A program made the translations under genes and the position numbers. 64,000 nucleotides of DNA, from positions 310,001 to 374,000 of the forward strand of contig WEDG01001518.1 of NCBI GenBank assembly GCA_017591395.1, given 5' to 3'. The stretch is from Schistocephalus solidus (Eukaryota > Platyhelminthes > Cestoda > Diphyllobothriidea > Diphyllobothriidae). The notes under the pieces are model-generated. The model searched no databases. It was not told the DNA's origin and worked only from the letters and a program-made list of their open reading frames with translations. Positions 3,385-42,730 of the stretch are shown here, piece after piece; the first letter of the stretch is position 1, and every line of letters starts with the position of its first letter.

Positions 3385-4338
3385 TCAACGTATTGGTGTA
3401 GATAGTGTGTGCTGATGTAGCCTAGCCTCCAGTGGTTTACCGCAGGTTTTTGTGAATAAGCATGTGTCCGAATAGGCGCATGCGGTGTGTGAATGTGCGG
3501 GAGCAGTGAGGGGAGTGGAGGCGGGCACGTCGACTGTATGTCGGAGCCCCATGCGCTGATTCATCGTGCCATGGATTCGCAGGAGACCGATCACGCCGAT
3601 GCGTGAGTTGAATTTGCGGGCGCAGCGTGGGCAGGAAAAATTGGAAGAGGCTGAGGGGGATGTCATTCATGATAGTGGGGTAGCGGTGGCGGTAAGGATA
3701 GCTGGAGCAGAGGGTGTGTATGGGGTATCGGTATTGTCGGAATTGCAGTGAATTCCGCTGTCATGGATGCGCATGTGACCGAAAGGGCCCATGCGATGAG
3801 TGAATGATCGAGGACGGTGAGGGCAGTGGATTCGGCGATCTCTGCTGTGTGTTGGAGCTCCAGGCACTGGTTCAACAGTCTCTGTACGATGGATTCGCAA
3901 GTGACCGACCAGGCCGATGCGTGAGGTGAATGTGCGGTCGCAATGAGGACAGTTTAGGAGGGAGTCCCCATCGCTGATGGTGGTAGTGGTGGTGGCGGTG
4001 GTGGTGGTTGTGGGGGTAACATTTGCTGAGCATTGTGATGTGGTCTCGATGATGGTGGGACTAATGGAATTGATGCCAGGGGTGAGGGTGGGGGAGTCCG
4101 AAGGAGGGTTGACAGAAGTTGACGTAGAATTTTGAATTGTCGGATTGTTGATGCATTGCGTCCGAAGATGTCCGACTAGACCGATTCGCGCGCGGAAGGT
4201 GCGGTGACAGCGCCGGCATGTTGGAAGGGTCTGGGCATTGGCGATGTTGGTCCAGGGCGCTGGTGACTTTCGTGCCGCTCTTTTGGTCTTTTCTTTTGGC
4301 GAGAGAGAGAGATGCCAACTGGCAACTTTTGTAGCCAC
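3385..4338 (-). pseudogene. C-terminal C2H2 zinc-finger array of LINE fragment D
   Basis: The minus strand encodes fingers of the pattern CPxC-x12-H-x3-H with a recurring core RIGLVGHLR. One frame (4338-3667) holds the first three. After a frame change, 3670-3385 holds two more. Threonine-rich linkers separate finger 1 from finger 2. The same array ends LINE copies B and C, so this is the end of a retrotransposon polyprotein and not a host transcription factor. The third finger has lost a cysteine (CPHRPRSF). The 5' side is cut at about 4334 by the start of PLE copy 1. Confidence 0.75.
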
Positions 4339-4409
4339 TCGAGTCGATTCTCAAACAAACCGGGGAATCCGACGAAACAAAGCACCTTATTCGGCAGCAG
4401 ATAACCTCT

Positions 4410-6542
4410 TTGGTGATGGCGCACAAACCACGTGCAATCATTTCCAGAGCGGAACAGAGTGCTCTCAAGACACTGAGGGCTGACACCAGCATCGTGATTC
4501 TGCCAGCCGACAAAGGACGCTCCACAGTAGTGATGAATAAGACAGACTACATCCAGAAGGCCAAGGCCTTACTGGAGGACCGACAGGCGTACCTACCATG
4601 TGACGATGAACCGATGAAGAAACTTGTAACGGAACTCGACAAGACACTCGCCGACATGCAAAAGAACAAGGCCATTACTAAGTCGGTACGACTGGCCATT
4701 AAACCAATAGACGCGGCCGCAGCAAGGTTCTACGGACTACCAAAAGTACACAAGGCTGGTATCCCCTCCGGCCAATCGTGTCATTGCGCGGTGCACCAAC
4801 CTTTCATCTGGCGAAATGGCTTTTTCCGAAATTTGCGGTCGCTCACCTCGGACGCGACCACGACGGTCTGTTCAGCGACTCAATTCCTGCAACAGCTCCA
4901 GGGAGTGCAAATTACTGCAGACGAGGTGATGGTGTCATTCGATGTCACCTCTCTCTTCACCGCGATCCCACAAGGCCTGGCAGTCGAAACGGTCAGCGAA
5001 CTGCTCGAGAGCAGGTACAACGAGACGGCCGAGACGGTGAAAGGGAGACATCTCATCCAGCTCTTAAAAATTCTGCCTGAAGACGTACTTCACTTTCGAA
5101 GGAACAACGTATGAGCAGGTCAAGGGGACGCCAATGGGATCGCCACTTTCGGGCTTCATCGCAGAGGCAGTTCTCCAAAAATTAGAGACCCTGGTTTTCG
5201 CAAATTACAAACCGAAATTCTGGACTCGGTATGTGGACGATACCTTTGTCATCATCAAGCGGGATATGGTCAAGGAATTTCATGACAGCCTGAATTCTAT
5301 TTTCCCTGACATCCAGTTTACAATGGAGGTGGAAGTCAACAACCAGCTGCCATTCCTAGACGTTCTGGTCCATCGAAAACCCTGCGGGAACCTTAAAAAC
5401 GACGGTGTATAGGAAGGCCACCAGTACCCGCCAAATCCTTAGCTACCATAGCAAACATCCGTCGTGTCACAAACGCAGTTGTGTTCGAACGCTATACAAA
5501 AAGGGCTGAAACACACTGCAGCGAGCCAGGCGAAAGAAAGGCAGAACTTCGATACCTCCAACGCCTCTTCATGGCCAACGGGTATCCCCGCAACTTCATC
5601 GAACGTAGCAGACAGTGCAGGCAAATCCGACGGCCAGCGACCGAACAGCCAAAGATATGGCGAGCGTTGCCATACATTGACGGTGTTTCGGAGGCGGTCT
5701 CCCGTCTCCTAAGACCGATGGGGATCGGCATCGCCCACCGGCCGGAGTCAACCATTCGACATCTGGTTATGAGGCCTAAGGCCCCCCTGCCCCGAGGTGA
5801 AACCACAAACGTCATCTATCGGGTTCAATGCAATTCCTGCGCAGTCAACTACATTGGAGAAACCGGGAAACGTCTGCAAACCCGGGTCGGAGAACACATG
5901 AGGGCGGTAAGAAGAATGGACCCGCTGTCTTTGGTGGCGGACCATTGCGCAGACTCTGGACACACGTTCGCCTTCCAGAATGCTGAAATTCTTGGTCGGG
6001 GAAGTGACCGCGTGGCAAGGGAAACCATCGAGGCTTGGCACACGGGAACAACCTCCATAAATCGTTGTGTGACGCTTCCTACGGCCTACCAAGCCCTCCG
6101 GACGCAGCTCAATGATCGAAAGAGCCAACGTGAACATGGGCCTAACGTGCATCCGAACATGGGTGAGTCCATGGCGGACACGCACGCAATCGCAACACAA
6201 CCCAGACCCGACGAAGGAACAGTTATCGCCTCGGCCAGCTCAACCACTTATCCGGCAGGTGCGAATACACACGGAGGTGCGATCGCAACCAAGATTAACA
6301 GCCTGGGGCGGCAGCTTCGGTCGATGAGGGTACTGACGACTACTGCCAACGTGCGAACTCCGGCCCCCGACCAGATTGAGAACCAGCCATCACCCGCCCT
6401 CCCCCAGTCCACCACGGACTCAGTGAACAGGCAAAGGATGATCGCCAAGAATGAAACACCACCATGCTCATCAAGCAGCAAGATGACTGAGAATCTCCAC
6501 CCCCAACCCGGCCCCTCCTCTACGCAAATTCAAAAACCTTAG
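4410..6542 (+). pseudogene. PLE reverse transcriptase / GIY-YIG endonuclease, copy 1, frameshifted
   Basis: Reverse transcriptase with a C-terminal GIY-YIG nuclease, the two activities PLEs use for insertion. Visible landmarks are VILPADKGRSTVV (near 4490), GLPKVHKAG (near 4735), FDVTSLFTAIPQG (near 4940), MGSPLSGFIAEA (near 5134), the catalytic YVDDTFVI (near 5230), and GIY-YIG signatures VIYRVQCNSC and YIGETGKRLQTRVGEH (near 5810-5900). The frame is broken by extra bases in homopolymers at about 5068, 5396, 5505 and 6500. Immediately after VHKAG both copies share a short out-of-frame segment. The N-terminal domain is absent. Confidence 0.85.
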
Positions 6543-6605
6543 TAATCCCGTATTAGCCGAAATGTTACCACCTATAAATACTGTGAGGCGCGGTACAAAA
6601 ATTTA

Positions 6606-6646
6606 CCTCCGACGATGAAATCTTGTTTGATTTTGAAACGTCAGGA
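6606..6646 (+). ncRNA. Hammerhead-like motif in PLE tail, copy 1
   Basis: A CCGACGA core (6609-6615) is followed by a hairpin, then GAAA (6635-6638), then GTC (6640-6642). It is flanked by a 3 bp helix I (CCT 6606-6608 with AGG 6643-6645). The core has one change from the hammerhead consensus CUGANGA (U4 is C). The hairpin pairs GAAATC with GATTTT and leaves one U unpaired. Hammerheads with a one-base-pair helix III are known from PLE pseudo-LTRs. The motif overlaps the last codons of the ORF. This copy may be weak or inactive. Confidence 0.45.
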
Positions 6647-6734
6647 CAATAAAACCATGGTTCCCGTGATCGCCTCTTCTTCTCATTTATTTCCGGGAAC
6701 GCGCATCTTCGCTTCTATTAGCAATATTTTTGGG

Positions 6735-9565
6735 CGCGAAGCGCTTGAGTCAGCACGACGTTGGGAAATATTTGCCCTTCGTCTGTCATCAACGTACGCG
6801 CAAATTCAATTCCTCCACAGATGCCTTGACAATCACGTGCTTCCGAAAAGCTTGTCCTACAAGCCACCGGTGAACACAAGTCTGGCGAAAAGGTGGGTGA
6901 CACAACATAGCAGACGAATGATTCGGGTGCTCCTCCAAGACTGCCATCTTCGACTGCGCAAATACAATGGGGTTTTTGAACCAAGCGGTTGCACAGTGCG
7001 CTGAACTAATCGGCGAGGACGGAGTCAGGCTGCTGCAGCAGGTGATTGATAAACGGGCCAGAGAACTACGAGCAACGAGAGATGCGGAGCTGGCGGATAA
7101 GCTTCGAAATATAACCCATTCATCTCAAGAAGAGAACGAAGTTCTGGTGCACAATATGTCATCGAAGCAGTTGTCGCCTGCACAATTGAAAGTGCTGAGT
7201 CATGAAGCTTGCTTTAACATCGCAGACGCCGATCCGGTAAATCTCGTGGCCACTGTCGAGTCGATTCTCAAACAAACCGGGGAATCCGACGAAACAAAGC
7301 ACCTTATTCGGCAGCAGATAACCTCTTTGGTGATGGCGCACAAACCACGTGCAATCATTTCCAGAGCGGAACAGAGTGCTCTCAAGACACTGAGGGCTGA
7401 CACCAGCATCGTGATTCTGCCAGCCGACAAAGGACGCTCCACAGTAGTGATGAATAAGACAGACTACATCCAGAAGGCCAAGGCCTTACTGGAGGACCGA
7501 CAGGCGTACCTACCATGTGACGATGAACCGATGAAGAAACTTGTAACGGAACTCGACAAGACACTCGCCGACATGCAAAAAGAACAAGGCCATTACTAAG
7601 TCGGTACGACTGGCCATTAAACCAATAGACGCGGCCGCAGCAAGGTTCTACGGACTACCAAAAGTACACAAGGCTGGTATCCCCTCCGGCCAATCGTGTC
7701 ATTGCGCGGTGCACCAACCTTTCATCTGGCGAAATGGCTTTTTCCGAAATTTGCGGTCGCTCACCTCGGACGCGACCACGACGGTCTGTTCAGCGACTCA
7801 ATTCCTGCAACAGCTCCAGGGAGTGCAAATTACTGCAGACGAGGTGATGGTGTCATTCGATGTCACCTCTCTCTTCACCGCGATCCCACAAGGCCTGGCA
7901 GTCGAAACGGTCAGCGAACTGCTCGAGAGCAGGTACAACGAGACGGCCGAGACGGTGAAAGGGAGACATCTCATCCAGCTCTTAAAATTCTGCCTGAAGA
8001 CGTACTTCACTTTCGAAGGAACAACGTATGAGCAGGTCAAGGGGACGCCAATGGGATCGCCACTTTCGGGCTTCATCGCAGAGGCAGTTCTCCAAAAATT
8101 AGAGACCCTGGTTTTCGCAAATTACAAACCGAAATTCTGGACTCGGTATGTGGACGATACCTTTGTCATCATCAAGCGGGATATGGTCAAGGAATTTCAT
8201 GACAGCCTGAATTCTATTTTCCCTGACATCCAGTTTACAATGGAGGTGGAAGTCAACAACCAGCTGCCATTCCTAGACGTTCTGGTCCATCGAAAACCCT
8301 GCGGGAACCTTAAAACGACGGTGTATAGGAAGGCCACCAGTACCCGCCAAATCCTTAGCTACCATAGCAAACATCCGTCGTGTCACAAACGCAGTTGTGT
8401 TCGAACGCTATACAAAAGGGCTGAAACACACTGCAGCGAGCCAGGCGAAAGAAAGGCAGAACTTCGATACCTCCAACGCCTCTTCATGGCCAACGGGTAT
8501 CCCCGCAACTTCATCGAACGTAGCAGACAGTGCAGGCAAATCCGACGGCCAGCGACCGAACAGCCAAAGATATGGCGAGCGTTGCCATACATTGACGGTG
8601 TTTCGGAGGCGGTCTCCCGTCTCCTAAGACCGATGGGGATCGGCATCGCCCACCGGCCGGAGTCAACCATTCGACATCTGGTTATGAGGCCTAAGGCCCC
8701 CCTGCCCCGAGGTGAAACCACAAACGTCATCTATCGGGTTCAATGCAATTCCTGCGCAGTCAACTACATTGGAGAAACCGGGAAACGTCTGCAAACCCGG
8801 GTCGGAGAACACATGAGGGCGGTAAGAAGAATGGACCCGCTGTCTTTGGTGGCGGACCATTGCGCAGACTCTGGACACACGTTCGCCTTCCAGAATGCTG
8901 AAATTCTTGGTCGGGGAAGTGACCGCGTGGCAAGGGAAACCATCGAGGCTTGGCACACGGGAACAACCTCCATAAATCGTTGTGTGACGCTTCCTACGGC
9001 CTACCAAGCCCTCCGGACGCAGCTCAATGATCGAAAGAGCCAACGTGAACATGGGCCTAACGTGCATCCGAACATGGGTGAGTCCATGGCGGACACGCAC
9101 GCAATCGCAACACAACCCAGACCCGACGAAGGAACAGTTATCGCCTCGGCCAGCTCAACCACTTATCCGGCAGGTGCGAATACACACGGAGGTGCGATCG
9201 CAACCAAGATTAACAGCCTGGGGCGGCAGCTTCGGTCGATGAGGGTACTGACGACTACTGCCAACGTGCGAACTCCGGCCCCCGACCAGATTGAGAACCA
9301 GCCATCACCCGCCCTCCCCCAGTCCACCACGGACTCAGTGAACAGGCAAAGGATGATCGCCAAGAATGAAACACCACCATGCTCATCAAGCAGCAAGATG
9401 ACTGAGAATCTCCACCCCAACCCGGCCCCTCCTCTACGCAAATTCAAAAACCTTAGTAATCCCGTATTAGCCGAAATGTTACCACCTATAAATACTGTGA
9501 GGCGCGGTACAAAATTTACCTCCGACGATGAAATCTTGTTTGATTTTGAAACGTCAGGACAATAA
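6735..9565 (+). pseudogene. PLE polyprotein (N domain, RT, GIY-YIG), copy 2, two frame breaks
   Basis: Three open segments form one protein. Segment one, to about 6965, carries the PLE N-terminal helical domain (motif FLHRCLDNHVLPKSL). Segment two (6967-7599) runs to the fingers region with VILPADKGRSTVV. Segment three (7709-9565) carries FDVTSLFTAIPQG, MGSPLSGFIAEA, YVDDTFVI (about 8147) and the GIY-YIG domain (VIYRVQCNSC, YIGETGKRL, about 8725-8815), followed by a low-complexity tail. Breaks lie at a GGGGTTTTT run near 6970 and an extra A near 7578, where copy 1 is in frame. These look more like homopolymer errors than old decay. Confidence 0.88.
9519..9558 (+). ncRNA. Hammerhead-like motif in PLE tail, copy 2
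   Basis: Identical to the motif in copy 1: CCGACGA at 9522-9528, GAAA at 9548-9551 and GTC at 9553-9555, with CCT/AGG closing helix I. The same U4-to-C departure from consensus is present, so the change belongs to the source element and not to one copy. Confidence 0.45.
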
Positions 9566-9635
9566 AACCATGGTTCCCGTGATCGCCTCTTCTTCTCATT
9601 TATTTCCGGGAACGCGCATCTTCGCTTCTATTAGC

Positions 9636-9661
9636 TATATATATATATATATATATATATA
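9636..9661. repeat. (AT)n microsatellite at PLE 3' end
   Basis: Uninterrupted TA dinucleotides abut the PLE tail on the left and the first tRNA-headed unit on the right. Confidence 0.95.
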
Positions 9662-9691
9662 TGATAAGGTGGAACCGACAAAGACAAGGGA

Positions 9692-9736
9692 GACCGGAAT
9701 GGCCATTTCTGGCTTATTAGCCGTCATCAGCCAGTC
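9692..9736 (-). ncRNA. Candidate type I hammerhead ribozyme, unit 1
   Basis: On the minus strand helix I is GACTGG (9736-9731) with CCGGTC (9697-9692). The core CTGATGA follows, then a GGCT-AATA-AGCC helix II, then GAAA. Helix III is very short and built on the self-complementary TGGCCA, and the predicted cleavage site is after ATT. The weak point is a C-A mismatch where the consensus has G10.1-C11.1. An alternative TGGCT/AGCCA pairing also competes. Confidence 0.5.
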
Positions 9737-9753
9737 ATACCCAATCCCAAGTG

Positions 9754-9825
9754 TGGCACACCTGGGATTCGAACCCGCGACCTTTGGTATTTGAGTCGAA
9801 CGCTCTACCATTGAGCCACGGGCTC
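9754..9825 (-). other. tRNA-like head of unit 1 (Pol III promoter)
   Basis: Box A (TGGCTCAATGG) and a perfect box B (GGTTCGAATCC) are correctly spaced on the minus strand. The anticodon loop would read CAA. The acceptor ends do not pair (GAGCCCG against GTGCCA), so this is a SINE-type head and not a functional tRNA gene. Confidence 0.7.
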
Positions 9826-9993
9826 GTTGTTTTGTCGGTTGTGATCGGGAATATGATGATAGTGTGGGGCTCACCGATCTGCTTAAGGAACATGCATGTT
9901 CCGTTGTGCCCTGGAGCTCAGACTAGAGCCCTCGCAGGCGGTCGAATAGCGACGTGTAGCATATGATTGAATGGAACCGACAAAGACAAGGGA

Positions 9994-10038
9994 GACTGGA
10001 ATGGCCATTTCTGGCTTATTAGCCGTCATCAGCCAGTC
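9994..10038 (-). ncRNA. Candidate type I hammerhead ribozyme, unit 2
   Basis: The same layout as the previous unit, but helix I is perfectly complementary (GACTGG with CCAGTC). The one base that differs from unit 1 turns a G-U pair into a Watson-Crick pair, which is compatible with a maintained helix. Confidence 0.5.
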
Positions 10039-10190
10039 ATACCCAATCCCAAGTGTGGCACACCTGGGATTCGAACCCGCGACCTTTGGTATTTGAGTCG
10101 AACGCTCTACCATTGAGCTCGTTGTTTTGTCGGTTGTGATCGGGAATATGATGATAGTGTGGGGCTCACCGATCTGCTTAAGGAACATGC

Positions 10191-11073
10191 AACAAATGTG
10201 ACCAAAAACAGTTGACATCGTAATCACGCGAAAAAAATCGATACTGGCGTGAACATTGGCACCATTGAGCGGCCGCCGTGTGTATCAGCCTGTCCTTATT
10301 GGTTCTCGTTTCTTCCATTTCTCCTTGAGATGTCTGTACGCCGCATCCAACTCGATATGTCTGTTGATGCATGACTCATCTGAATGCATCGCCTCGAGGA
10401 ACTCTCGACCTTTCTTGAAGGGACAGGCGGCGACAATCCGAGTTTTATCCCAAGCGAAGGTGTGCCCGGTGTCTAGAGTATGCATAGCTGTTTGGGACAG
10501 ATGGTCCCGCCTCTTTACTGCCAACTGATGTTCATAGATGCGTGTAGAGGCGGATTTGCCGGTCTGACCACAATACATGGCATCACATGCTTCACACGGG
10601 ATCTTGTAGATGACTTCTTTCTTGTCCAAATAGTTGACCCTGTCCTTAGGGTGGACAAGCTGGGTACGCAAAGTGGTTGTCGGTTTGTGCGCCACATGAA
10701 TTTGGTGCTTCCTTAGGTGTCTTTCGACGAGTTCAGACACATTCTAAATGTAGGGAAGGGTTCGCCATGTATTTATTTTTGGCGCCTCGTTAGAACTACT
10801 TGGTTCCTTTTCTGTCGACTGCTGTCGTTTCAAGTATCGGCGTACAAAATCCTTAGGGTACCCGTTCTGCGAAAATAATTCACACAAGTAATTCGGTTCG
10901 ATTCGATAACCTTCTTCGTCGGAGCAATGGGTTTTTGCTCGACTGAGTAGACTGTTGACAGCACTCCGTTTGCGAGCGATAGGCTGATTGCTCTCATAAG
11001 GCAGAATAACTTCGGCATAAGTTTCCTTTCGATAAACCGATGTGCGTAGTGTTCCGTCGGTCTTTCGTTGTAC
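10191..11073 (-). mobile_element. PLE fragment, C-terminal part, between inverted arrays
   Basis: A 5'-truncated PLE of a different lineage from copies 1 and 2, on the minus strand. It lies between the left and right arrays of 302 bp units, interrupting one unit on each side. Confidence 0.8.
10285..11073 (-). pseudogene. PLE RT C-terminus and GIY-YIG domain, one internal stop
   Basis: The upstream part (to 10744) carries the RT-thumb region (TDGTLRTSVYRKETYAEV, then NGYPKDFVRRYL) and ends LPYI-stop. The downstream part (10740-10285) continues in the same frame and holds the GIY-YIG nuclease (VIYKIPCEACDAMYCGQTGK, then TRIYEHQLAVKRRDH) and the conserved GREFLEAMHSDESCINRHIE. A single stop codon at about 10744 separates them, so decay is slight. 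The catalytic RT motif YxDD is missing through truncation. Confidence 0.8.
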
Positions 11074-11085
11074 GGGATTGGGTAT

Positions 11086-11130
11086 GACTGGCTGATGACG
11101 GCTAATAAGCCAGAAATGGCCATTCCGGTC
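11086..11130 (+). ncRNA. Candidate type I hammerhead ribozyme, unit 3
   Basis: GACTGG (11086-11091), CTGATGA (11092-11098), GGCT-AATA-AGCC helix II, GAAA, self-complementary TGGCCA, then CCGGTC (11125-11130). Same strengths and same C-A mismatch as units 1 and 2. Confidence 0.5.
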
Positions 11131-11299
11131 TCCATTGTCTTTGTCGGTTCCATTCAATCATATGCTACTCGTCGCTATGCGACCGCCTGCGAGGGCTCTA
11201 GTCTGAGCTCCAGGGCACAACGGAACATGCATGTTCCTTAAGCAGATCGGTGAGCCCCACACTATCATCATATTCCCGATCACAACCGACAAAATCAAC

Positions 11300-11371
11300 G
11301 AGCCCGTGGCTCAATGGTAGAGCGTTCGACTCAAATGCCAAAGGTCGCGGGTTCGAATCCCAGGTGTGCCA
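11300..11371 (+). other. tRNA-like head of unit 4
   Basis: The best preserved head: box A TGGCTCAATGGTAGAGC and box B GGTTCGAATCC on the plus strand, about 30 bases apart. Acceptor ends are unpaired. It should act as an internal Pol III promoter. Confidence 0.7.
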
Positions 11372-11388
11372 CACTTGGGATTGGGTAG

Positions 11389-11433
11389 GACTGGCTGATG
11401 ACGACTAATAAACCAGAAATGGTCATTCCGGTC
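11389..11433 (+). ncRNA. Degenerate hammerhead-like element, unit 4
   Basis: The core CTGATGA and GAAA are kept, but helix II reads GACT/AACC, which no longer pairs. This copy is probably inactive. Confidence 0.4.
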
Positions 11434-11577
11434 TCCCTTGTCTTTGTCGGTTCCATTCAATCATATGCTACACGTCGCTATGCGACCGCCTGCGAGGCTC
11501 TAGTCTGAGCTCCAGGGCACAACGGAACATGCATGTTCCTTAAGCAGATCGGTGAGCCCCACACTATCATATATTTA

Positions 11578-12186
11578 TCGGGGAAATAATTTCTGAAATG
11601 ATTAAGCGCAGGACATGGAATCGGGTGCTTCGAACATGACTTTTTTAGGGACAGACCCGAAATTTCAATGAACATTTGGGTCGAAGACAATCAATCACTG
11701 TGGAATAACCACGTAATGCTCATCCTACAAACAAGTAGTACTGCAAGTAGTATGAGTCTTATATGGCAAAGACATTATACCGTACTTCCGACATAGATAC
11801 TAGCTAAAAGCCCAGACACGTGTTTCGCCGATGTTTCTGCTGCTGCTTGACACAGCAACGAAAAGTTCGGCTCCTCAGTGGGTCCCCCAGCGTTCTCTAT
11901 GCGGTTTCTGGTATATGGACTCCAGAGAATAATCGGGGAAATAATTTCTGAAATTATTAAGCGCAGGACACAGAATCAGGTGCTTCGGACATGACTTTTT
12001 AGGGACTGACCCGAAATTTCAATGAACATTTGGGTCGAAGACAATCAATCACTGTGGAATAACCACGTAATGCCCATTCTACAAACAAGTAGTACTACAA
12101 GTAGTATGAAACTTATATGGCAAAGACATTATACCGTACTTCCGACATAGGTATTAGCTAAAAGCCCAGACACGTGTTTCGCCGAA
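11578..12186 (-). repeat. 355 bp tandem repeat (1.7 copies), retrozyme-like
   Basis: Copy 1 is 11578-11932 and copy 2 is 11933-12186. The two copies differ by only a few substitutions, and equivalent points are exactly 355 bp apart. Copy 2 stops inside the hammerhead, at 'cgccga', where LINE copy B begins. No ORF is shared. On the minus strand the unit carries a strong type I hammerhead motif (11811-11882), so transcripts of the array would be expected to cut into 355 nt monomers. Confidence 0.85.
11811..11882 (-). ncRNA. Type I hammerhead ribozyme
   Basis: Read on the minus strand, every consensus element is present in order. Helix I is CCCA (11882-11879) with TGGG (11814-11811). The core CTGAGGA (11878-11872) fits CUGANGA. 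Helix II is GCCGA (11871-11867) with TCGGC (11831-11827), keeping the conserved G10.1-C11.1 pair, with an extended stem-loop beyond it. GAAA is at 11826-11823. Helix III is tiny and self-complementary (ACAC/GTGT), and the cleavage triplet is GTC ending at 11815. A palindromic short helix III is typical of hammerheads that act as dimers in tandem repeats. Confidence 0.75.
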
Positions 12187-12564: not shown

Positions 12565-13563
12565 TTACCGCAGGTTGTCGTGGAGGCGCATGTGTCCTAA
12601 TAGGCCTATGTGGTGTGTAAATGTGCGGGGGCAGTGAGGACAGTGGAGGTGGGCGCGTCGACTGTATGTCGGAGCCCCAGGCACTGGTTCACAAACCTCC
12701 GTGCGATTGATTCGCAGGTGACCGATCAGGCCGATGCGTGATTTGAAGTTGCGGGCGCAGTGTGGACAGCAGAAATCGGTAGAGGCTGGGGGAATGTCAT
12801 TCACGGAAGTGGGGGTGGCAGTGGCGGTAAGAATGCCAGGAGCGGAGGGTATGCATGGTGTATCGGTGTTGTCGGCATTGCGATGAAGTCCGCTGTCATG
12901 GATGCGCATGTGACCGAATAGGCCCTTGCGATGAGTGAATGCGCGAGGAAAGTGAGCGCAGTGGAGGCGGCGATCTCTGCTGTGTGTTTGGTGCGCCAGG
13001 CACTGGTTCACCAGTCTCTGCACGATGGAATCGCAAGTGACCGACCAGGCCGATGCGTGAGGTTAATGTGCGGTCGCATTGAGGACAGTTTAGGAGAGAG
13101 TCCCCATCGCTGGTGGTGGTGGTGGGGGTAGTGAAGGCGAAGGTGGTGGTGGTTGCGGTGACGGGGGTAACAGGCGATGAGTATTGGGATGTGGTCTCTA
13201 TGATGGTGGGAGTAATGGAATTGATGCCAGGAGTGAGGGTGAGGGAGTCTGAAGGAGGGTTGGCAGAATTTGACTTAGAAGTTGGAATTGTCTGATTGTT
13301 GGTGCATTGCGTCCGAAGATGTCCAACCAGGCCGATTCGCGCGCCGAAGATGCGTTGACAGCGTGGGCATATTGGCAGGGCCTGGGCATCAACGATGTTA
13401 GTCCGGGCCCTGGTGACTTTCGTGTCGCTCTTTTGGCCTTGGTGGCGGTGATCCGGTTGGCCTCATAGATTGCTGAACCAGTCTTCACGGATCTTCTCCA
13501 TGTTGGTGTATCCTGGGCGAGGTCCTTCCAGATCGCCGGGTTGATTTGCAGTTCTTTCAGCAA
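12565..13563 (-). pseudogene. C2H2 finger array of LINE copy B
   Basis: The minus strand gives the RT-distal linker (PAIWKDLAQDTPTWRRSV, near 13540), then fingers with the family core. 13023-12565 includes CPHCARNFKSRIGLIGHLR and CPHCPRTFTHHIGLLGHMR. Finger 1 loses its pattern around 13370 through a frame change. Fingers two onward are in another frame. Likely a nucleic-acid binding tail of the LINE protein. Confidence 0.75.
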
Positions 13564-15261
13564 TTTCTTCTAAGTTTCCTTGTAGCGTCGTTTTTGACCT
13601 CCCTGTCGGCGAGCACCCGTAGCAACATCGCCGTAGAAAAATCGCTCGTCGCACATTCTTACCAGGTGGTCGCTCTATCGCAGTTTCACATGCCTCAGCA
13701 TGGCGTGGATGCTGAGGATTCCGGTCCGCTCCAGGACTTCCGTGTCCGGGATCCTGTCTTGCCATCTCAGCTTCAGTATTCTGCGGAGGCAGCTGAGATG
13801 AAAGTGATTCAGCTTCCTGGCTTGGTTCGAGTAGACGGTCCAGGTCTCTGCTCCGTAAAGGAGTGTCGTTAAAACGACGGCCTTGTACATCTTCAGTTTG
13901 GTGTTCAGGTGAATACCGTGGCGATTTCACACGGAGGTCTGCAGCTGGCCGAAGGCCTGACTAGCTTTGGAAATCCGTTGGGCAACCTCGTCATTGATTG
14001 TCGTGTTGCGTGACATCGTGCTTCCTAGATAAGCGAAGATTTCCACGTTTTTGAGTTGAGCACCGTTGACATTGATTCGGGGAGCATTGTATTCCGCGCT
14101 GGGTGGCGGCTGGTGCATGACAACCGTTTTGGCTGTACTGATTTGTAATCCAAAATCGGTGCAGCCTGCGGCGAAGAGGCCCATACTCCTTTGCATGTCC
14201 TCCTCCGTCACGGTGTTCAGGGCGCAGTCGTCCGCGAACAACAAGTCATGGACTGCAGTTGTAGACAGGCGCGTTGAAGCCTGCATACGCCGACTGTTGA
14301 AAAGATGGCCGTCAGTTCTATAGGCGATGCGGATCCCAGTCTGTTCATCATGGTAGGCGTCCATCAGCATAGCCGAGAACATGAGGCTGAACAGGGTGGG
14401 AGCCAATACGCAGCCCTGCTTCACTCCGTTGGTGACTGCAAATGCTTTTGATACCGCCCCGTTGTCAGTGACGCGCGCCGTCATCCCATCATGAAGCTGA
14501 CGCACCATGTGCGTGAACCGCTAAGGACAACCAAATTTCTGCATGACTTTCCACAGTCCGTCACGATTTACCGTGTCAAAGGCTTTCGTTAGATCCACGA
14601 AGGTAGTGTATAGGTGAGTTCGCGTCTTCTGGCACTTCTCTTGTAGCTGGCGGGTGGCAAAGATCTTGTCTGTTGTTCCGCGGTGTCGGTGCAAGCCACA
14701 TTGGCTTTCCGGGAGCAGGCCCTGCTCTAGGTGACCGCTCAGACGATTGGGACGTATACGGGCGAAGATTTTCCCGGCGATGTTGAGCAACGAGCTGCAT
14801 CTGTGAGTATCACAGAGTTGCCGGTTCCCCTTCCGTTTTTAGAGATGGACGATGGTCGCATCTTTGAAGTCCTGAGGAACTTGTCCTTGGCGTCACATCT
14901 CCTGGAAGAGTGTTGTGAGTTCTGCCATCAGCCGGGGCCCACCATGCTTGTGAACTTCCGGTGGGATTGCGTTGGATCCCGGTGCTTTACCGCTGGAAAT
15001 CTGCTGCACGGCCCGGATGGTTTCTGATATGGAAGGCGGCAGATCCAGGTCATTGTTCGTGTTAACTTGAGGGAGCCGGTCAATGGCTGCATCGGCGATT
15101 GCTGATGAGCAATTAAAGACACGTCTGAAGTGCTCGGCCCAGTGCTTCAGAATTTGCGATTTCTCTGTCAGCAGTGTTGTGCCGTCAAAGCTGAGCAGCA
15201 GTGCGGTCCCCGTGATACACGGGCCGTAGATGGCCTTGATGACTTTGAAAAAGTTTTTCAT
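13463..15261 (-). pseudogene. Reverse transcriptase of LINE copy B
   Basis: Starts KNFFKVIKAIYGP (15261). It includes the SGKAPGSNAIPPEV motif, the FVDLTKAFDTVNRDGLW motif (near 14600), GVKQGCVLAPTLFSLMFSAM (near 14420) and the catalytic LLFADDCAL (near 14240). It continues into [14 protein letters not shown] and [14 protein letters not shown] (near 13840). The FADD box is intact, but the reading is split over several frames and a stop lies near 14521. Synthesises cDNA at the nicked target. Confidence 0.85.
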
Positions 15262-17275: not shown

Positions 17276-18561
17276 GTATCAACCGCAGCTTCGATCTGGT
17301 TTCGCATTACGAAGGTCTGCGTGCACGGTCCACTGACTTGTGGCCACCTTAAAGCAATAACTGCTTATCCGTGCCCAACCAAGTGCAACCTCACTGACTC
17401 TGCATCTCCCGCCACGTGACTTACTATCAAAACTCTAGCACCCCTCCCCTCACATGCGACAGCTATCGTAACACGATTCATGGCCCCCCCAACCTCCCAT
17501 GACGTCAGTCTGTCGATGTTACCTCTGTGCCCCTAAACACTCCAGCGTGACAATCCCAACTCTCACTTATCATTTCGTCTGACGACGGGTTGGTGTAACC
17601 AGCTTGAAAATTCACTAGTAAACCTCGATTTTCCGAAAAGCCTTCTTTCTTCATTTATCATCTCGGAATGCACACTACCTCAAATATTCAATATATATAT
17701 ATATATATGATAGTTTGTTGCTCACCGATCTGCTTAAGGAACATGTATGTTCCGTTTTGCCCTCGAGCTCAGACTAGAGCCCTCGCAGGCGGTCGCATAG
17801 CGACATGTAGCATATGTTGTTATAGTATATATATAATGATTTTTTTGTTTAAGAGAAACCTATTGAGCACTAACATCTAGAACGTCCCATTACCTCGTCA
17901 GATATTATTGGGCGAATGTGGAGTAAAGTTGTCGAACCAGAATTTATCTTGTCCCTTCCTAATTGGTATACAAATATTTCTGTTGAATATCACATACTTC
18001 GCCTGAAAATCATGTTTTTAAGTTCACAAATCCACCAGTGATAGGGGTTTTACGCGGTGTTTTCCATGTCTCATAATTTTCCGTCACTTATAAGTAGCCT
18101 TGGAGGCATTGCTGGTTTTCCACCTTCCCCTTGAGGTCGGGATCTCTCCTTGCAGGTCAGTCATGTGGTTGATGCAAGAATAAATGCAATTCCTGTAATT
18201 TATGGTACCTTTTCCAATGCCGTAACTTTCTTCTTGTCAACTATACCTTCCTATTTCCTCTGGATTCCCAGTGGGAATGTCGGGTCCACTATGCAACTTT
18301 TAGTCACTAACCGGATATAATGAGGCTGATCTCTTCGTCGGCCGGGGACAGAACAACTCTCAGTTCTGGTTAGAAATTCCATGCCTGACATGGGTTGTTG
18401 TCAGAGTCCATGGTAGCCCTCATTGCTACCCTTTTTTTCCAATCACATTCAATCCCAATATTTAGACCAGTACTGCACCTCCGTTTGTTGTATGGCTTGA
18501 TCACTGCTATCCCAGGATGCGTGTCGGATTCCAGCTTGATGTGTTGTGTTTGCCTTCACAG
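17276..18561. other. Non-coding sequence upstream of first visible CCDC186 exon
   Basis: No conserved coding. It holds an (AT)n run at about 17690-17708 and, at 17707-17816, a fragment of the 302 bp unit in minus orientation. Presumably an intron of CCDC186, because the next exon lacks a start codon. Confidence 0.5.
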
Positions 18562-26578: not shown

Positions 26579-26735
26579 GACTAGTCACTATGCGACTGCC
26601 TGTGATTTCCAAGGCATAGCGGGAAGAGCATGTTCCGTAACCAGAGCGGTGAACGCCACACTATGATAATTCATATTCCCCGTCACAACCGACAGGACAA
26701 TGGACCGTGGCTCAAGGGTATAGTGTTATAGGTCG
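26579..26735 (+). mobile_element. Decayed 302 bp tRNA-headed unit
   Basis: Follows the order of the intact unit: 'cactatgcgactgcctg', 'gagcatgttccgtaa', 'gccacactatgataatt', 'cccgtcacaaccgacag', then a damaged box A (GTGGCTCAAGGG). Breaks off before box B. Confidence 0.55.
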
Positions 26736-27239: not shown

Positions 27240-29050
27240 GGGTAATTTGGCTTGCCAGAATTGGCACCAGGAAGAGTGGACATCCGCGTGTTCTCCGCAT
27301 GGCTAACTACTTTGCCCAGACAGTATCAGCACCAATATGGAGCAAGCAGGTCGTTGCGCTTGTTGCTTGATTGGGGACCGGAAAACCATGACTCGAGCAG
27401 TTTGCGGGTCACACGGTTGTCGCCTCTGGCGAGAATTTCAGCTTCATCAAATTTGAATGTGTGGCCGGGTCCTGTTGCTGCGTGCTCGGTCATTCGCGTT
27501 CGGAGGAGTCTTCCAATTTCTCCGACATAGTTGCTCTGTCCACAACTGCACCAGACCCGATAGGCGAGCTCAGATGTTTCTTGCCGCGGCAGTGAGTCTT
27601 TTGGCCTTTTGATTGCCTCCGGTCTGTGTGCAACTCCAACACAAAAGAGTGTGAGAAGGTGGCTGACGCCTTCTGAGACATTCTTCACATACGGTAGAGC
27701 TCGCTAAAATTTGGGGGCAGTCGGATTTGCTCTCGTCTCGTTTGCGTAGGCGCTGGTTGACGAAGTTTCGCGGGTAGCCATTCGCTCTAAACACCCGTCA
27801 AAGATCTTGTAATTCGGCAACCTTGTCTTTCGGTTCACTGCAGTGTGTCTCCACACGCTGTTATTGTGCCCTTAAGCAACTGCGTTTGTGGCTCATTGGG
27901 TGACTACTGTTGTAACTCTGTACTTGCGTCGTGTTTGTCGTCTTCCTCAATACTTTGGTTTTTAAGCCACCACAATCTTTGCGGCAGACAAGGACATGAA
28001 GAAAGACCAGCTGATTGTTTTCATCTTCCTCCATCGTAAGTTGAATGTCCGGGAAGATGGGGTTGAGATGTTCTTTGGATTCCAGCACGTAATCCCGTTC
28101 GATGACGACGATGTCATCCACATACCGAGCCCAGAATTTTGGTCTGCGGTGTCGGAAAATCAGCGACTCAAATCGTTGCAGGACGGCCTCAACTGGGATT
28201 CCTGAAATCGGTGACCCCATTGGCGTGTCTTTGACCTGCTCGTAGATTGTTCCGTCAAACGGGAATTATGTCTTAAGACAGAACTTCAGGAGTTGGAAGA
28301 TTTGGGCGTGTCCGAGACGATTCTTTGTTTTATCGTATTTATCTCGAAGGAGAAATTCGATGGTCTCGACTGCCAGGCCCTGCGGAATACAAGTAAAGGG
28401 GGAGGTGACATCAAAGGATACCATAACGTCACTTGGCAGGAGGCTTACCCCTGTAAGTTTCTCCAAGAATTGTGTTGAAAAGCTGGTCCGGAATTTGAGG
28501 CACCGAAACAGCCACTTTACCAATCCTTAATTTGGAGTACCTTTGAGTGATACAATGGGCCGGAGGGGAATGCCATATTTGTGCACTATAGGAAGGCCAT
28601 AGAATCTGGCCATTGTATCGCATTGATTTCGCGTGTCAGTGATTTTACGTTGTTTGCACTAGGGTCATAGGACTGGCGGTTCTCTAGTAAATCTTTGGCT
28701 TTTTTAAGGTAGGCTGTCCTGCCCATAACGACTGTGGAACGCCCCTTGTCCATCAGCACGATGACGAGGTCTTTCTCGGCCTTGAGTTCCCTTATTGCAG
28801 CACGTTCGACTTTGTATAGCACTTCGGGCGGCCTGTGAGCCATGCAAAGTGATGACATTTGGTGTCGGATAAGACCCTTTTTCTCATCCGTCGCTTCCGT
28901 GTGACTGAGGATTGATTCCACCGCTGCAGTCATGTTGACGGGTTCGGCATTGGCTGTGTTAAATGAAGCTTCATGCCATAGCACCTGCATTTGATCCTTC
29001 GTCAGCTCCTTTAACGACAGGTTGTGCACCAGTTTGTCGTTTTGGGTGGC
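27240..29050 (-). pseudogene. PLE 4 polyprotein, decayed
   Basis: Minus-strand fragments in order: MSSLCMAHRPPEVLYKVE and VIVLMDKGRSTVVM (29029-28586), DVMVSFDVTSPFTCIPQG (28523-28266), MGSPISGIPVEAVLQRF and the catalytic YVDDIVVI (28220-27861), ANGYPRNFVNQRL (27794), then a GIY-YIG relic with NYVGEIGRLLRTRMTEH (27688-27326). At least five frame breaks or stops. Diverged from both PLE lineages at 4-11 kb. Confidence 0.8.
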
Positions 29051-29079
29051 GTTGGATTAGGCAGCTTTCTAAATTAGTC

Positions 29080-30819: not shown

Positions 30820-33431
30820 GTAAGTGGGCCTCTCTGCCCAGCTGCAAGTGAAAAAAGCTGGCTCTGTAACACCTGATATTCGGATTGGCTATTTACCAGC
30901 CAATATATCGAGTAAGACTTAGACTTCGAGAAATCCCTACGACTGTTTTGTAGCGTCTCGTCAATTATATATGCCTGTATGCCTGTCTATGAAGTGTAAG
31001 CTATTATAGATTTCCATGGGTGACGAACGCTTCGTGATAACTGCTCACTGCGGGCTTGTGTCCCTGCATCATTTCTGCCAGTTTATGACCGGTTTGACCT
31101 GTGTAATTGCAGCAGAATTATCCAGAGTTACAAGGTGATGGCCAACTATTTGCTCCGGTTAAATGGACCGTAAATCCACATGAATTGGAAGTGGACTGTG
31201 ACTTCCGGTCGTTGCCCACGTCTTGAGCAAAATTAAGCTCTCTGTTCCTTCAGATGTGCTTGATTAGCCATTCTTTACGAACGGAATCTTGCGATAACGA
31301 CTATCTTCAGGCTTATCTTGTGACATCCTGCAGTTCGTTTCGTTTAGCTTCCTTTGCGTCTTACTGCGTCATTATGGTTGAAATATAGTCTTAGTGTAGT
31401 ATTCATAGCATTTCGGAAAAGCGTTTGCCTTTATACTGTCGCCTAATCAATATAACACCTAGCAAGGGCTTCTGGCCGTCCTATTCCCTGAAAGTTGCCC
31501 AATCAACTTCTCTCAATTTCAAAAAAGTATGAATAGCCAGTCGGTTTGGCTCATTTCCCCTCTCTGATGAGTAACTTCAGCTGAAGTTTAAATGTACCAT
31601 TCCGGGGAATGGAACCAATCGGTCCCTGGGATACGTACCCCTAGTTGCACCGCCATTTACCAGCATGTTTTGTGCAGTGTGCTTGCCGCCGGCTTTGGCC
31701 ACAGAACGACATTTTCCGTCTCTGTCATGTTTTATCTGTTCTACGATGGTCTTCTACGGATTTCGACAAAATCTTAAAGGAATCTTGACTGAAGATCGTG
31801 GTTCTGAAGAAGAATATGCGATCGCTGGAACAAGAAGTTTATTGGTCCTACCTTTCGCATTCCCTCTCGAACCCATACTCAGAGAGTCGTAGAAAAGGGT
31901 ACTAGAGGTACAACGAACGCGGTATTTAGAGAACTCGATCGCCACACAACAACACGCCTACATTAATTAGCAGCACTCAATTTCATTGCTAGGAGCCGTA
32001 GATGATGCGATGATTGCTCGTCAGACAACACTCAAGTCGTTAAGCGCTGCAATTTCATCTCAGCTATTGATTCTTGGCGTGTCAATTACTTGGTCAGTTG
32101 ACTCGCTGTCACCATAGTTGTTGGTTGTCCACGGCCTCCCCGCTTGGCTTATTATTTTTCTAGGGCTAAATCACAGCCTGAATATGGACGCGGGAGGTCA
32201 TTCTACGTGCTAACTGAATGCGGGCCGAAGAACCATGGCTCTAGCAGCTCGCGGTTGTCGCCCCCTGCCAGAATTTCGGCCTCGTCAAACTTGCAGGTGT
32301 GGCCGGGTTCTGTCGAATGAGCCGCGATCTCTGTCCGTGGTTCTGCCATTAGACAGCCGACCAAACCCAGCTGTCTGTCAAGTCGTAATGCCCTACCGAA
32401 CGCTGGCCTTGTTTGCAATTCTACTGACTCGGTTAAGAGGGTAGGGTGCCCAGGTACCTTTAGCTGGCCTTTCTCTTGTTTTTTTGCGCAAAATGGAAAT
32501 ATGCACCTACATATTTGCATTCTTCACATCCTGGTGTCAGATTTCCTCAGTAAGCGGAGAGCGACAGTTGTCTTATGTTTGCAAACGCGCAGCCTTTTGA
32601 GCGTTTGGCAATTGAATTAGAAAAAAATCCCGTCTGAGGTTCGTCATTATTAAATTTGCTATATCTTTCACCGTAAACCTGAAGTGTGATAGTCACTGAC
32701 TCATAACTTGTAGCTTGGAGGAAATAAACCTTTCAAAGTTCCTTTATTTTGTCCATATCATTTTTCGACCATTGATTGCTACTTTTCAAGCAACCTTTTA
32801 TATCAAAATCCAGCAAAACAATTGTTGCTTCCTTAGGAGACTCATGACGAAGATTGAGTGTATATAAATTGAACCCATCGTTCGAAACACGTTTAGCTGC
32901 TTGCCCTTGCTCATTGCCTGCACTTTTATCTCTTTGGTGCGTTCATATAACCTGAATCACGATGACATAGCGCAGGAACCTTCGCTTTTCCCTAATGATG
33001 TCGTGGACACCAACCACGGTTACGCAGAGCCCAGCGAGGCCAACCATCCTTCATGAGAACCAATAGGATGTTTTGAGGACTGATAATTTTAACATGGCAA
33101 TTTTTGCGTCCGCTCTGTGTCTGAATTTATCCCCTCTGTGGCGCGGCACCTCATGACTGGTCGTTGAAACCCTGTGGGGCTTCCAATGGCTTAGGTGGGC
33201 GCAACACCTGGAACTTTGAATCGGCTGACCTTTTTAAGTTCTGCCAATAGTTCCATGTTAAACCTGAAAAGTCAAGTCGGCAAAAAAACGTGGTTTGGGT
33301 AGTTCACCATAAGGCCAATAAAGTAAATATGAGAGGTTGACAGGGCTCGTTTTTTCTTACTCTGCCATGTCAGACCTGAAGTTTTCACCTAGTAAACCGC
33401 GGTCTTTTTCATCCCTTTACCTTATTTTCAG
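30820..33431 (+). other. CCDC186 intron
   Basis: 2.6 kb. The only recognised element is a PLE GIY-YIG relic at about 32190-32345 on the minus strand. The rest is unassigned. Confidence 0.65.
32190..32345 (-). pseudogene. PLE C-terminal relic
   Basis: The minus strand reads EPGHTCKFDEAEILAGGDNR and LLEPWFFGPHS, matching GPGHTFKFDEAEILARGDNR and LLESWFSGPQS of PLE 4 (27326-27450). Just this end of the GIY-YIG region survives. Confidence 0.65.
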
Positions 33432-39520: not shown

Positions 39521-40174
39521 TTACCGCAGGTTTTTGTGAATGCGCATGTGACCGAAAAGGCCCATGGGATGAGTGAATGCACGAGGACAGTGAGGGCAGT
39601 GGAGGCGGCGATCTCGGCTGTGTGTTGGAGCTCCAGGCACTGGTTCACCAGTCTCTGTACGATGGATTCGCAAGTGACCGACCAGGCCAATGCGTGAGGT
39701 GAATGTGCGGTTGCAATGAGGACATTTTAGGAAAGAGTCCCCATCGCTGGTGGTGGTGGTGGGGGTAGTGAAGGCGAAGGCGGTGGTGGTTGCGGTGATG
39801 GGAGTAACAGGCGATGAGTATTGGGATGTGGTCTCTATGATGGTGGGAGTAATGGAGTTGATGCCAGGAGTGAGGGTGAGGCAGTCTGAGGGAGGGTTGG
39901 CAGAATTTGACGTAGAAGTTGTAATTGTCATATTGTTGGTGCATTGCGTCCGAAGATGTCCAACCAGGCCAATTCGCGCGCGGATTATGCGTTCGCAGCG
40001 CGGGCATATTGGAGGGGCCTGAGCATCGTCGTTGGTCTGGGGCGCTGTTGAATTTCGTGCCGCTCTTTTGGCCTTGGCGGCGGCGATCCGGTTGGCCTCA
40101 TAGATTTCTGAACCAGTCTTCACTGATCTTCTCCATGCCGGCCTATCCTGGGCGAGGTCCTCCCAGGTCGCCAA
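39521..40174 (-). CDS. LINE copy C C-terminal zinc-finger segment, intact frame
   Basis: 217 residues open on the minus strand. The linker ATWEDLAQDRPAWRRSVK follows straight on from the RT segment. Finger 1 is CPRCERIIRARIGLVGHL. A Thr-rich spacer leads to finger 2 (CPHCNRTFTSRIGLVGHLR) and finger 3 (CPHCPRAFTHPMGLFGHMR), then HKNLR-stop. C2H2 spacing is C-x2-C-x12-H-x3/4-H. Presumably binds the element's RNA or target DNA. Confidence 0.8.
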   Translation of the reverse strand: MATWEDLAQDRPAWRRSVKTGSEIYEANRIAAAKAKRAARNSTAPQTNDDAQAPPICPRCERIIRARIGLVGHLRTQCTNNMTITTSTSNSANPPSDCLTLTPGINSITPTIIETTSQYSSPVTPITATTTAFAFTTPTTTTSDGDSFLKCPHCNRTFTSRIGLVGHLRIHRTETGEPVPGAPTHSRDRRLHCPHCPRAFTHPMGLFGHMRIHKNLR

Positions 40175-40180
40175 GTTGAT

Positions 40181-41905
40181 TTACAGTTGCTTCAGCGATT
40201 TCTTCAAAGTGTCCTTGTAGCGTCGTTTTTTACCTCCCTGCCGGCGAGAACCCGTAGCGACATCTGCGTAGAAAAGTCGTTTGGGTAGTCGCTCGTCGTC
40301 CATTCTTACCAGGTGGCCGCTCCATCGCAGTTTCACTTGCCTCAGCATGGCGTGGATGATGAGGACTCCGGTCCGCTCCAGGACTTCCGTGTCCGGGATC
40401 CTGTCTTGCCATCTCAGCTTCAGTATTCTGCGGAGGCAGCTGAGATGAAAGTGATTCAGCTTGCTGGCTTGGTTCGAGTAGACGGTCCAGGTTTCCGCTC
40501 CGTAAAGGAGTGTCGTCAAGACGACGGCCTTGTACATCTTCAGTTTGGTGTTCAGGTGAATACCGTGACGATTCCACACGGAGGCCTGTAGCCGGCCGAA
40601 GGCCTGACGAGCTTTGGAGATCCGTTGGGCAACCTCGTCATCGATTCTCGTGTTGCGCGACATCGTGCTTCCTAGATAAGCGAAGGTTTCCACGTTTTTG
40701 AGTTGAGCACCGTTGACATTCATTCGGGGAGCATTGTATTCCGCGCTGGGTGGCGCTGGTACATGACAACCGTTTTGGCTGTACTCATTGTAAATCCAAA
40801 ATCGGCGCAGCCTAAGGCGAAGAGGTCCATGCTCCTTTGCATGTACTCCTCCGTCACGGTGTTAAGGGTGCAGTCGTCCACGAAGAGCAAGTCATGGACT
40901 GTAGTCGTAGACAAGCGCGTTGAAGTCTGCATACGTCAACTGTTGAAAAGGTGCCCGTCAGTTCTGTAGGCGATGCAGATCCCAGGCTGCTCATCACGCT
41001 AGGCGTCCATCAGCATTGCCGACAACATGAGACTGCACAGGGTGGGAGCCAATACGCAGCCCCGCTTCACTCAGTTGGTCACTGCGAATGCTTCGGATAC
41101 CGTCCCGTTGTCATTGACGCGCGCCGTCATCCCGTCATGAAGCTGACGCACCATGTGCGTGAACCGCTCAGGACAACCAAATTTCTGCATGACTTTCCAC
41201 AGTCCGTCACGATTCACCGTGTCAAAGGCTTTCGTTAGATCCACGAAGGTAGTGTATAGGTGAGTTCGCGTCTTCTGGCACTTCTCTTGTAGCTGGCGGG
41301 CGGCAAAGATCATATCGGTTGTTCCGCGGTGTCGGCGGAAGCCACATTGGCTTTCCCGGAGCAGGCCCTGCTCTAGGTTACCATTCAGACGATTGAGAAG
41401 GATACCGGTGAAGATCTTCCCGGCGATGTTGAGCAACGAGATGCCTTTGTGATTATTACAGAGTTGCCGGTTCCCCTTCCGTTTATAGAGATGGACGATG
41501 GTCGCGTCTTTGAAATCCTGAGGAACTTGTCCTTGGCGCCACATCTCCTGGAAGTGTTCTGAGTTCTGCCATCGACCGGGGCCCACCGTGCTTGTAGACT
41601 TCCGGTGGGATTGCGTCGGATCCCGGTGCTTTACCGCTGGATATATGCTGCACGGCCCGGATGGTTTCTGATATGGAAGGCGGCAGATCCAGGTCATTGT
41701 TCGTGTCCACTTCAGGGAGCCGGTCAATAGCCGCATCGGAGATGGCTGATGAGCAATTAAGGACACTTCTGATGTGCTCGGCCCAGCGCTTCAGAATTTG
41801 CGATTTCTCTGTCAGCAGTGTTGTGCCGTCAAAGCTGAGCAGCAGTGCGGTCCCCGTGATACACGGGCCGTAGATGGCCTTGATGGCTTTGAAAAAGTTT
41901 TTCAT
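40181..41905 (-). pseudogene. Reverse transcriptase of LINE copy C
   Basis: Begins MKNFFKAIKAIYGPCITGT. It includes SGKAPGSDAIPPEVYKHGG, NIAGKIFTGILLNRL, FVDLTKAFDTVNRDGLW (near 41230) and the catalytic box, which reads FVDD in place of the FADD of copy B (near 40890). It continues into [17 protein letters not shown] and [16 protein letters not shown] (40600-40480). Stops near 41071 and frame changes at about 41530 and 40930 break it. Confidence 0.85.
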
Positions 41906-42289
41906 TTAATTGCGGTCCGCATACTCCCGGATTTCCTCAGCCTTTCGGATCATCTCGGCATCCTGCATCTCCCGCAGTCGTTGCTTTACAATGCAGCGGC
42001 ATTTGAAGAAGGCTGCTTTGGTGGCGTCAGTCCGAAGGTCCATGTAGGCTTTGTGTAGTCCATTCTTCTCCGCGAGTAAGTTGTTGATGTCGGCGTCATT
42101 GTCGTCAAACCAGTCCTGGTGTTTATGGCGTGCGCGTCCGAGGACTTCGAGGGCGGTGGACTGGATGACATTTCGCAGTTGACACCATCGTGCCTCCACG
42201 GTAGCATTATCATCTGGAGCATGCAGGTTCTCCAGTTTCTCGGTTATTTGGTTGCTGAAATCAAAACAGTGAGCAGGCAAATTTAACAA
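41906..42289 (-). pseudogene. Endonuclease-RT linker of LINE copy C
   Basis: Same 127-residue segment as in copy B, ending YADRN, then TAA directly followed by the ATG of the RT segment. The two copies differ by few residues. Confidence 0.75.
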
Positions 42290-42346
42290 AAGAGTATTTA
42301 ACTTACCTGGCGGACGCTTACCTTGGGGCCTTCGTCGGGGTTGCAG

Positions 42347-42730
42347 TCAGAGCCTCATCTGGGAGATGACGAGGTGGAGATCTGTCCAACCATCGGCATC
42401 GCAGATCGCCTTCGTTACCAGCACGTCCTGTCGATCTCGCCTCTGGACGAGAACATAGTCCAGCAGATGCCAGCGCCGCGACCGAGGGTGCATCCACGTG
42501 GCCTTCTCCCGCGTCGGAAGGCGGAAGAAAGTGTTGGTTAGCAGGAGACGGTGTTCCACACACATGCGTAGAAGAAGGAGGCCGTTATCGTTACAGCTAC
42601 CGAGATCGTGGGGACCCAGAACTCCCTGCCAGGCAGCGTGGTCCGTTCCGACGCGGTTGTTGAAGTCACCAAGGCCAATTAACTTGGCCTCTTTCGGCAC
42701 AGTCGCCAGCAGGACGTGCAGGTCCTCGTA
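42347..42730 (-). pseudogene. APE endonuclease of LINE copy C, C-terminal half
   Basis: Reads [18 protein letters not shown] and [20 protein letters not shown], then DLHLVISQM at the position of the catalytic histidine motif. Separated from its N-terminal half by the nested insertion. Confidence 0.8.

Follow-up and report, generated by a model that had tools for sequence, protein, structure and literature searches.

A 64-kb window, the whole stretch of DNA analyzed here, was found to carry two adjoining families of short tandem repeats with hammerhead ribozyme motifs. One has a unit of 355 bp with a type I hammerhead (HHR1); the other has a unit of 302 bp with a tRNA-like pol III head and a second, different type I hammerhead-like motif (HHR2), for which cutting is predicted from the sequence. 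The two have no detectable common sequence. The best explanation is that both families are metazoan retrozymes of the non-autonomous, non-LTR kind, a reading to which we assign a probability of about 0.6. The motifs, the repeat units, the predicted folds, the tRNA-like head, the array lengths and the AT-rich ends of three of the four 302-bp copies were directly observed.

A type I hammerhead in a truncated 355-bp repeat

The features of the 355-bp locus, all on the minus strand, are as follows.

11811..11882, minus: HHR1, complete type I hammerhead (descriptor scan, Rfam, sequence), with the predicted cut at 11815/11814
11803..11891, minus: HHR1 with a predicted helix I extension of 8 pairs, 4 of them G-U, past a bulged A (fold centroid)
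11882-11867, minus: 5′ parts of HHR1 from the sequence, CCCA (11882-11879), CUGAGGA (11878-11872) and helix II strand GCCGA (11871-11867)
11831-11811, minus: 3′ parts of HHR1 from the sequence, UCGGC (11831-11827), GAA (11826-11824), ACACGUGU (11823-11816), C17 (11815) and UGGG (11814-11811)
11577..11931, minus: copy 1 of the 355-bp repeat, complete (self-BLAST, repeat finding, sequence)
11932..12185, minus: copy 2, 254 bp, in which the ribozyme lacks its 5′ half; identity with copy 1 is 94.5% over 255 aligned columns
12165..12185, minus: 3′ half of HHR1 in copy 2 (helix II 3′ strand, GAAA, ACACGUGU, C17, UGGG; sequence)

Read along the minus strand, HHR1 has the sequence CCCA-CUGAGGA-GCCGA-(35 nt)-UCGGC-GAA-ACACGUGU-C-UGGG, with helices of 4, 5 and 4 bp, a GUC triplet and the core CUGAGGA plus GAAA. 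It therefore shows the CUGANGA and GAAA core, the NUH triplet, the three helices and the opening at helix I that characterize type I hammerheads. The original prediction had placed these parts, in this order, at 11811-11882, and each of them was located there; its cut at 11815/11814 agrees with the layout of the motif, from which the same position is predicted, and the type I assignment was upheld by the descriptor scan and the motif parts. The limits given for the motif hold for the core; with extended helices it is in fact larger, about 11803-11891.

An Rfam covariance search had been proposed as a check on that prediction. With an 801-nt input and a permissive threshold, Hammerhead_1 (RF00163) matched HHR1 at 22.8 bits (E 0.0071), which is under the gathering threshold of 34. 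When the 64-kb window was searched at the gathering threshold there were 0 matches, and HHR1 was not among the matches of a whole-window search at E≤10 with stricter filters. The low score is probably due to the long insert in helix II, with its 35-nt loop II.

These Rfam results could be taken to mean that the likeness to a hammerhead arose by chance. We regard this as highly improbable, since descriptor scans of randomized sequence produced nothing comparable. HHR1 was the sole match to the stricter type I descriptor in the window, while 60 order-1 Markov windows gave 0.1 matches per window with all helices of at least 3 bp and 0 with helices of at least 4/5/4 bp. A looser descriptor was composed after HHR2 had been noticed and allows for a mismatch at 10.1-11.1; it found 4 matches in the real window versus 8 loose and 0 strong ones in 300 Markov windows. 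Thus none of the 60 and 300 shuffled windows held a match as strong as the four real ones, all of which lie inside adjoining tandem repeats of retrozyme size. HHR1 is confirmed as a real type I hammerhead motif; its self-cleavage is predicted.

HHR1 was folded with 15 nt of 5′ and 11 nt of 3′ flanking sequence. The centroid of this fold is the hammerhead junction minus helix III. Helix I consists of 4 bp, the bulged A and the 8 additional pairs listed above; helix II begins with 5 bp, which a 2x2 internal loop separates from 4 bp, and after a 1x1 mismatch come another 8 bp. The 35-nt loop II and helix II together form a 17-bp hairpin. The bulged A and the internal loop are predicted where a tertiary contact between the helix I and helix II loops may be considered. 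Compared with the centroid, the minimum free energy structure has extra pairs within the core. The fold energy of the flanked motif had a z of -2.44 (3 of 200 shuffles were equally stable), and for the 72-nt motif without flanks an alternative fold was favoured by 2.8 kcal/mol. Pair probabilities were 0.56-0.92 for helix I and 0.96-1.00 for helix II, whether the hairpin region, the unit in linear or circular form, or the whole locus was folded; for helix III the value in the monomer was 0.01.

Helix III had been described as self-complementary, and ACACGUGU is indeed a palindrome: two HHR1 copies cofolded into a double hammerhead with a helix III of 8 bp. The energy gained on dimerization was matched by 24 of 100 shuffles and so is no evidence in itself; it is the shape that fits. 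Type I motifs of newts and viroids cleave as double-hammerhead dimers (PMC6155905), and a palindromic stem III is frequent among repeat-type hammerheads (PMC3088659). Hammerheads with a helix III of two pairs and a tetraloop have been likened to those of invertebrates, the majority of which are efficient cutters (PMC7229834). Cutting of HHR1 as a dimer is plausible on the basis of the cofold, though not required.

The tandem arrangement of the repeat stands as predicted, except that it comprises only 1.7 copies and that the spacing, given before as exactly 355 bp, is 354 in one stretch and 355 in another. Copy 2, which is upstream on the minus strand, has the 3′ strand of helix II as its first part; it consequently lacks CUGAGGA and leaves the locus with a single complete ribozyme and no second one for a covariation comparison. 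The half-motif in copy 2 cannot cut on its own. As release of a monomer needs two complete ribozymes, a 355-nt monomer cannot be freed here: judged from its sequence, the locus is a truncated copy in which one cut would be possible. Of the proposal that a retrozyme makes monomer circles at this place, the retrozyme-like repeat is retained and the circles are not.

No ORF of at least 150 aa overlaps the 355-bp unit. A pol III promoter was considered and rejected, as neither strand has an exact A or B box. The 355-nt circle has no unusual structure (z -1.18 over 60 shuffles). Elsewhere in the 64-kb window the unit is absent, barring one 28-nt match with E 0.43. By eye, no target-site duplication of the insertion was recognised. 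The 7-nt sequence TGTGGGG occurs on both sides of it and was dropped as a candidate because each copy belongs to the neighbouring repeat; at the junction 12185/12186 a different repeat family starts mid-element. With a single locus and no recognised duplication, mobility of the 355-bp repeat is unsupported within the window.

HHR2 and the tRNA-like head of the 302-bp repeat

The repeat adjoining the 355-bp locus contains HHR2, which the original prediction had overlooked. The members of this family in the window are listed below.

11074..11575, plus: 302-bp repeat array of about 1.7 units (self-BLAST, repeat finding)
9659..10191, minus: inverted 302-bp repeat array of about 1.75 units (self-BLAST)
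11086..11130, plus: intact HHR2, predicted cut after 11124 (looser descriptor, fold)
11389..11433, plus: HHR2 with helix II broken (relaxed scan; missed by the looser descriptor of the 300-shuffle test)
9994..10038, minus: intact HHR2, predicted cut after 10000 (looser descriptor)
9692..9736, minus: intact HHR2, predicted cut after 9698, 302 nt from the cut at 10000 (looser descriptor, fold)
11300..11368, plus: tRNA-like head with exact A and B boxes (Rfam tRNA 26.6 bits, gathering threshold 29)
9757..9825, minus: tRNA-like head (Rfam tRNA 27.3 bits, gathering threshold 29)
10064..10119, minus: partial tRNA-like head (Rfam tRNA 26.5 bits, gathering threshold 29)
17707-17816, minus: truncated copy between AT-rich tracts (window self-comparison)
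26580-26727, plus: older fragment, 76% identical (window self-comparison)

The 302-bp family also has copies at 17.7 and 26.6 kb of the window; the 355-bp repeat has one locus there. ARAGORN called no tRNA at the tRNA-like heads. HHR2 is situated about 20 nt 3′ of the head and reads GACUGG-CUGAUGA-C-GGCU-AAUA-AGCC-A-GAA-AUGGCCAU-U-CCGGUC, with a palindromic helix III. In one intact copy a U-G pair of helix I is replaced by U-A. In all four copies the triplet is AUU and 10.1-11.1 is a C-A mismatch, and both features are expected to slow hammerhead cutting. A U-U mismatch at 10.1-11.1 has been reported as tolerated (PMC3088659). Rfam reported no hammerhead for HHR2.

In the three intact copies the monomer hammerhead fold was 5.5-6.0 kcal/mol above the minimum free energy. 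Two of these three copies, identical to each other in sequence, were cofolded and gave the double hammerhead, again with a helix III of 8 bp; the shuffle control covered HHR1 only. The two intact motifs of the minus array lie 302 nt apart, and from this spacing a monomer could in principle be released.

Several of these observations could also be explained if both repeats were dead satellite or SINE relics, genuine descendants of ribozyme elements that have lost cutting and movement. The truncation of the 355-bp locus, the broken helix II in one of four HHR2 copies, the mismatch and AUU triplet in all four and the poor monomer folds agree with such decay. However, the core and helices of HHR1 are intact despite a difference of about 5% between the repeat copies, and three of the four HHR2 copies keep all their helices. 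We give the relic explanation a real but clearly lesser probability than that of two retrozyme families.

Penelope-like neighbours and a possible route of spread

Retrozymes of this kind would depend on an enzyme from elsewhere, and the two repeats have Penelope-like elements (PLEs) as neighbours.

4331-9640, plus: Penelope-like element in partial tandem, ending in (TA)n (reverse transcriptase Pfam 27.4 bits, gathering threshold 29.6; GIY-YIG-like end by eye); tandem spacing 2915 bp, copies 99.6% identical
10192-11073, minus, as HHR1: piece of a second Penelope-like family, with a stop codon, between the inverted 302-bp arrays; protein 39% identical to that of the 4331-9640 element
27335-29056 and 32158-32418, both minus: further Penelope-like protein matches

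The older 302-bp fragment at 26580-26727 lies about 50 nt downstream of what appears by eye to be a Penelope-like C-terminus. Other repeats, at 3667-4338, 12565-14508 and 39521-42735 (all minus), code for C2H2 zinc-finger-like and reverse transcriptase proteins; three of their ORFs have Pfam matches, and these proteins may resemble those of tapeworms. Microsatellite arrays of GAG and CTA type are present at 50366-50535 and 58319-58660. Penelope, RTE-BovB and CR1 are given as the chief LINEs in Spirometra and Sparganum (PMC8166898), and Penelope clusters are present in another tapeworm (PMC12274263). Together with the possible likeness of the zinc-finger and reverse transcriptase proteins, this repeat content fits an animal host among the flatworms and suggests, though it does not prove, a tapeworm.

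As the pseudo-LTRs (pLTRs) of PLEs carry minimal hammerheads (PMC11167929, PMC6155905), the 355-bp repeat might itself be such a pLTR, with PLE pieces nearby on the plus strand (4331-9640) and on the strand of HHR1 (10192-11073). We consider this unlikely. The 355-bp copies adjoin directly, spaced 354-355 bp without an intervening ORF, and do not flank a reverse transcriptase with GIY-YIG, and the unit is unmatched elsewhere in the window apart from the 28-nt match. Moreover, neither a loose scan with the 10.1-11.1 mismatch disallowed nor a mismatch-tolerant scan detected a hammerhead in the 4331-9640 element, nor did these scans show one in the Penelope-like pieces here, and no sequence common to the Penelope-like pieces and either repeat was found in the window. 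A relaxed-scan match at 26487, with helices of 3, 3 and 2 bp, was judged to be due to chance. The hammerheads of PLEs are like those described here in their minimal helix III, their partial-tandem organisation and the preference of the enzyme for AT-rich targets (PMC11167929, PMC6155905).

Returning to the reading as two retrozyme families, we infer cutting, circles, a helper enzyme and mobility for both. Tandem copies would be transcribed, and the short palindromic helix III would pair two ribozymes into a double hammerhead that would cleave after C17 in HHR1 or U17 in HHR2. The resulting unit-length RNAs would be circularised by a host ligase. A reverse transcriptase, supplied by a Penelope-like element or another non-LTR element, might then copy such a circle, or a multimer, through more than one turn into AT-rich DNA, and insertions about 1.7 units long would result. 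A target-primed route for circles or multimers has been proposed, with PLEs named as strong candidates (PMC7229834), and an active Penelope-like enzyme favours AT-rich DNA (PMC11167929).

Each of the three arrays measures 1.7-1.8 units, and the six outer ends all lie away from the predicted cut sites. In the 302-bp family, three of the four copies stop at an ATCAT sequence beyond which the DNA is AT-rich (11575, about 9660 and 17707); the minus array does so at a unit position different from that of the 11575 and 17707 copies, and the older 26.6-kb fragment ends elsewhere. The minus 302-bp array and the plus-strand Penelope-like element both end in one (TA)n tract, at 9636-9662. The array lengths, ends and AT-rich flanks are compatible with a circle or multimer having been reverse transcribed by target priming. 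Caution is needed as to this route, since there are few arrays and LINE-mobilised SINEs can look similar.

A more specific proposal is that the two families, although no sequence kinship is detectable, share a loopless 8-nt palindromic helix III such that a good ribozyme would form only as a dimer, and that a Penelope-like reverse transcriptase would have copied both into AT-rich DNA by going more than once around a circular RNA. Arrays of 1.7 units that end off the cut sites, and the common (TA)n, would then be genomic traces of rolling reverse transcription of RNA circles. This proposal is speculative, and we hold it to be doubtful as a whole.

Relation to known hammerhead repeats

Metazoan hammerhead repeats have been described as units of 150-450 bp with a GC content under 50%, with platyhelminths among the phyla named (PMC7229834). 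The spacings of 302 and 354-355 bp are within this size range; the GC content of the 355-bp unit (43.9%) is as described and that of the 302-bp unit (52.6%) is above it. Both resemble metazoan non-LTR retrozymes in having type I hammerhead motifs in repeats that measure a few hundred bp, are arranged head to tail and have no LTR-type ORF (PMC7229834). Unlike these, HHR1 has a helix II of 17 bp with a 35-nt loop, and its locus has 1.7 copies. Of the two complete ribozymes from which a retrozyme would release monomers, the minus 302-bp array has both, as intact predicted motifs, and the 355-bp locus has one.

The schistosome elements SMalpha and Sjalpha are SINE-like, with a tRNA-derived head and a type I hammerhead (PMC2770079, PMC8490949, PMC4918200). 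Compared by plan and size, the 302-bp unit resembles them in its organisation: both are tandem, about 300-335 bp long, and combine a tRNA-like head with a hammerhead. It differs in its AUU triplet and C-A mismatch, whereas the 355-bp unit differs in having no tRNA head. PLE hammerheads are unlike ours in that no ORF separates the ribozymes here and nothing is shared with the PLE sequences of the window. Satellite hammerheads of newt and axolotl, compared by design, have a similarly weak palindromic helix III, dimer fold and unit length of 330-350 bp (PMC7229834, PMC6155905), but HHR1 and HHR2 have 8-nt palindromes and other helices. Exact or degenerate HHR1 and HHR2 patterns gave 0 matches in viral contigs, and HHR2 patterns gave 0 in prokaryotic genomes, as expected of an animal repeat.

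Both repeats thus appear, by analogy, to have the architecture of already known metazoan retrozymes; what is new is these two families. Platyhelminth hammerhead repeats in general have already been mentioned (PMC7229834). The literature on hammerhead ribozymes in cestodes, Spirometra and flatworms yielded no title reporting SMalpha-type repeats from a tapeworm. If the host is a tapeworm, such repeats would reach past the blood flukes into another flatworm group. The presence of two ribozyme families beside Penelope-like elements would, in addition, make the proposed helper role of these elements testable.
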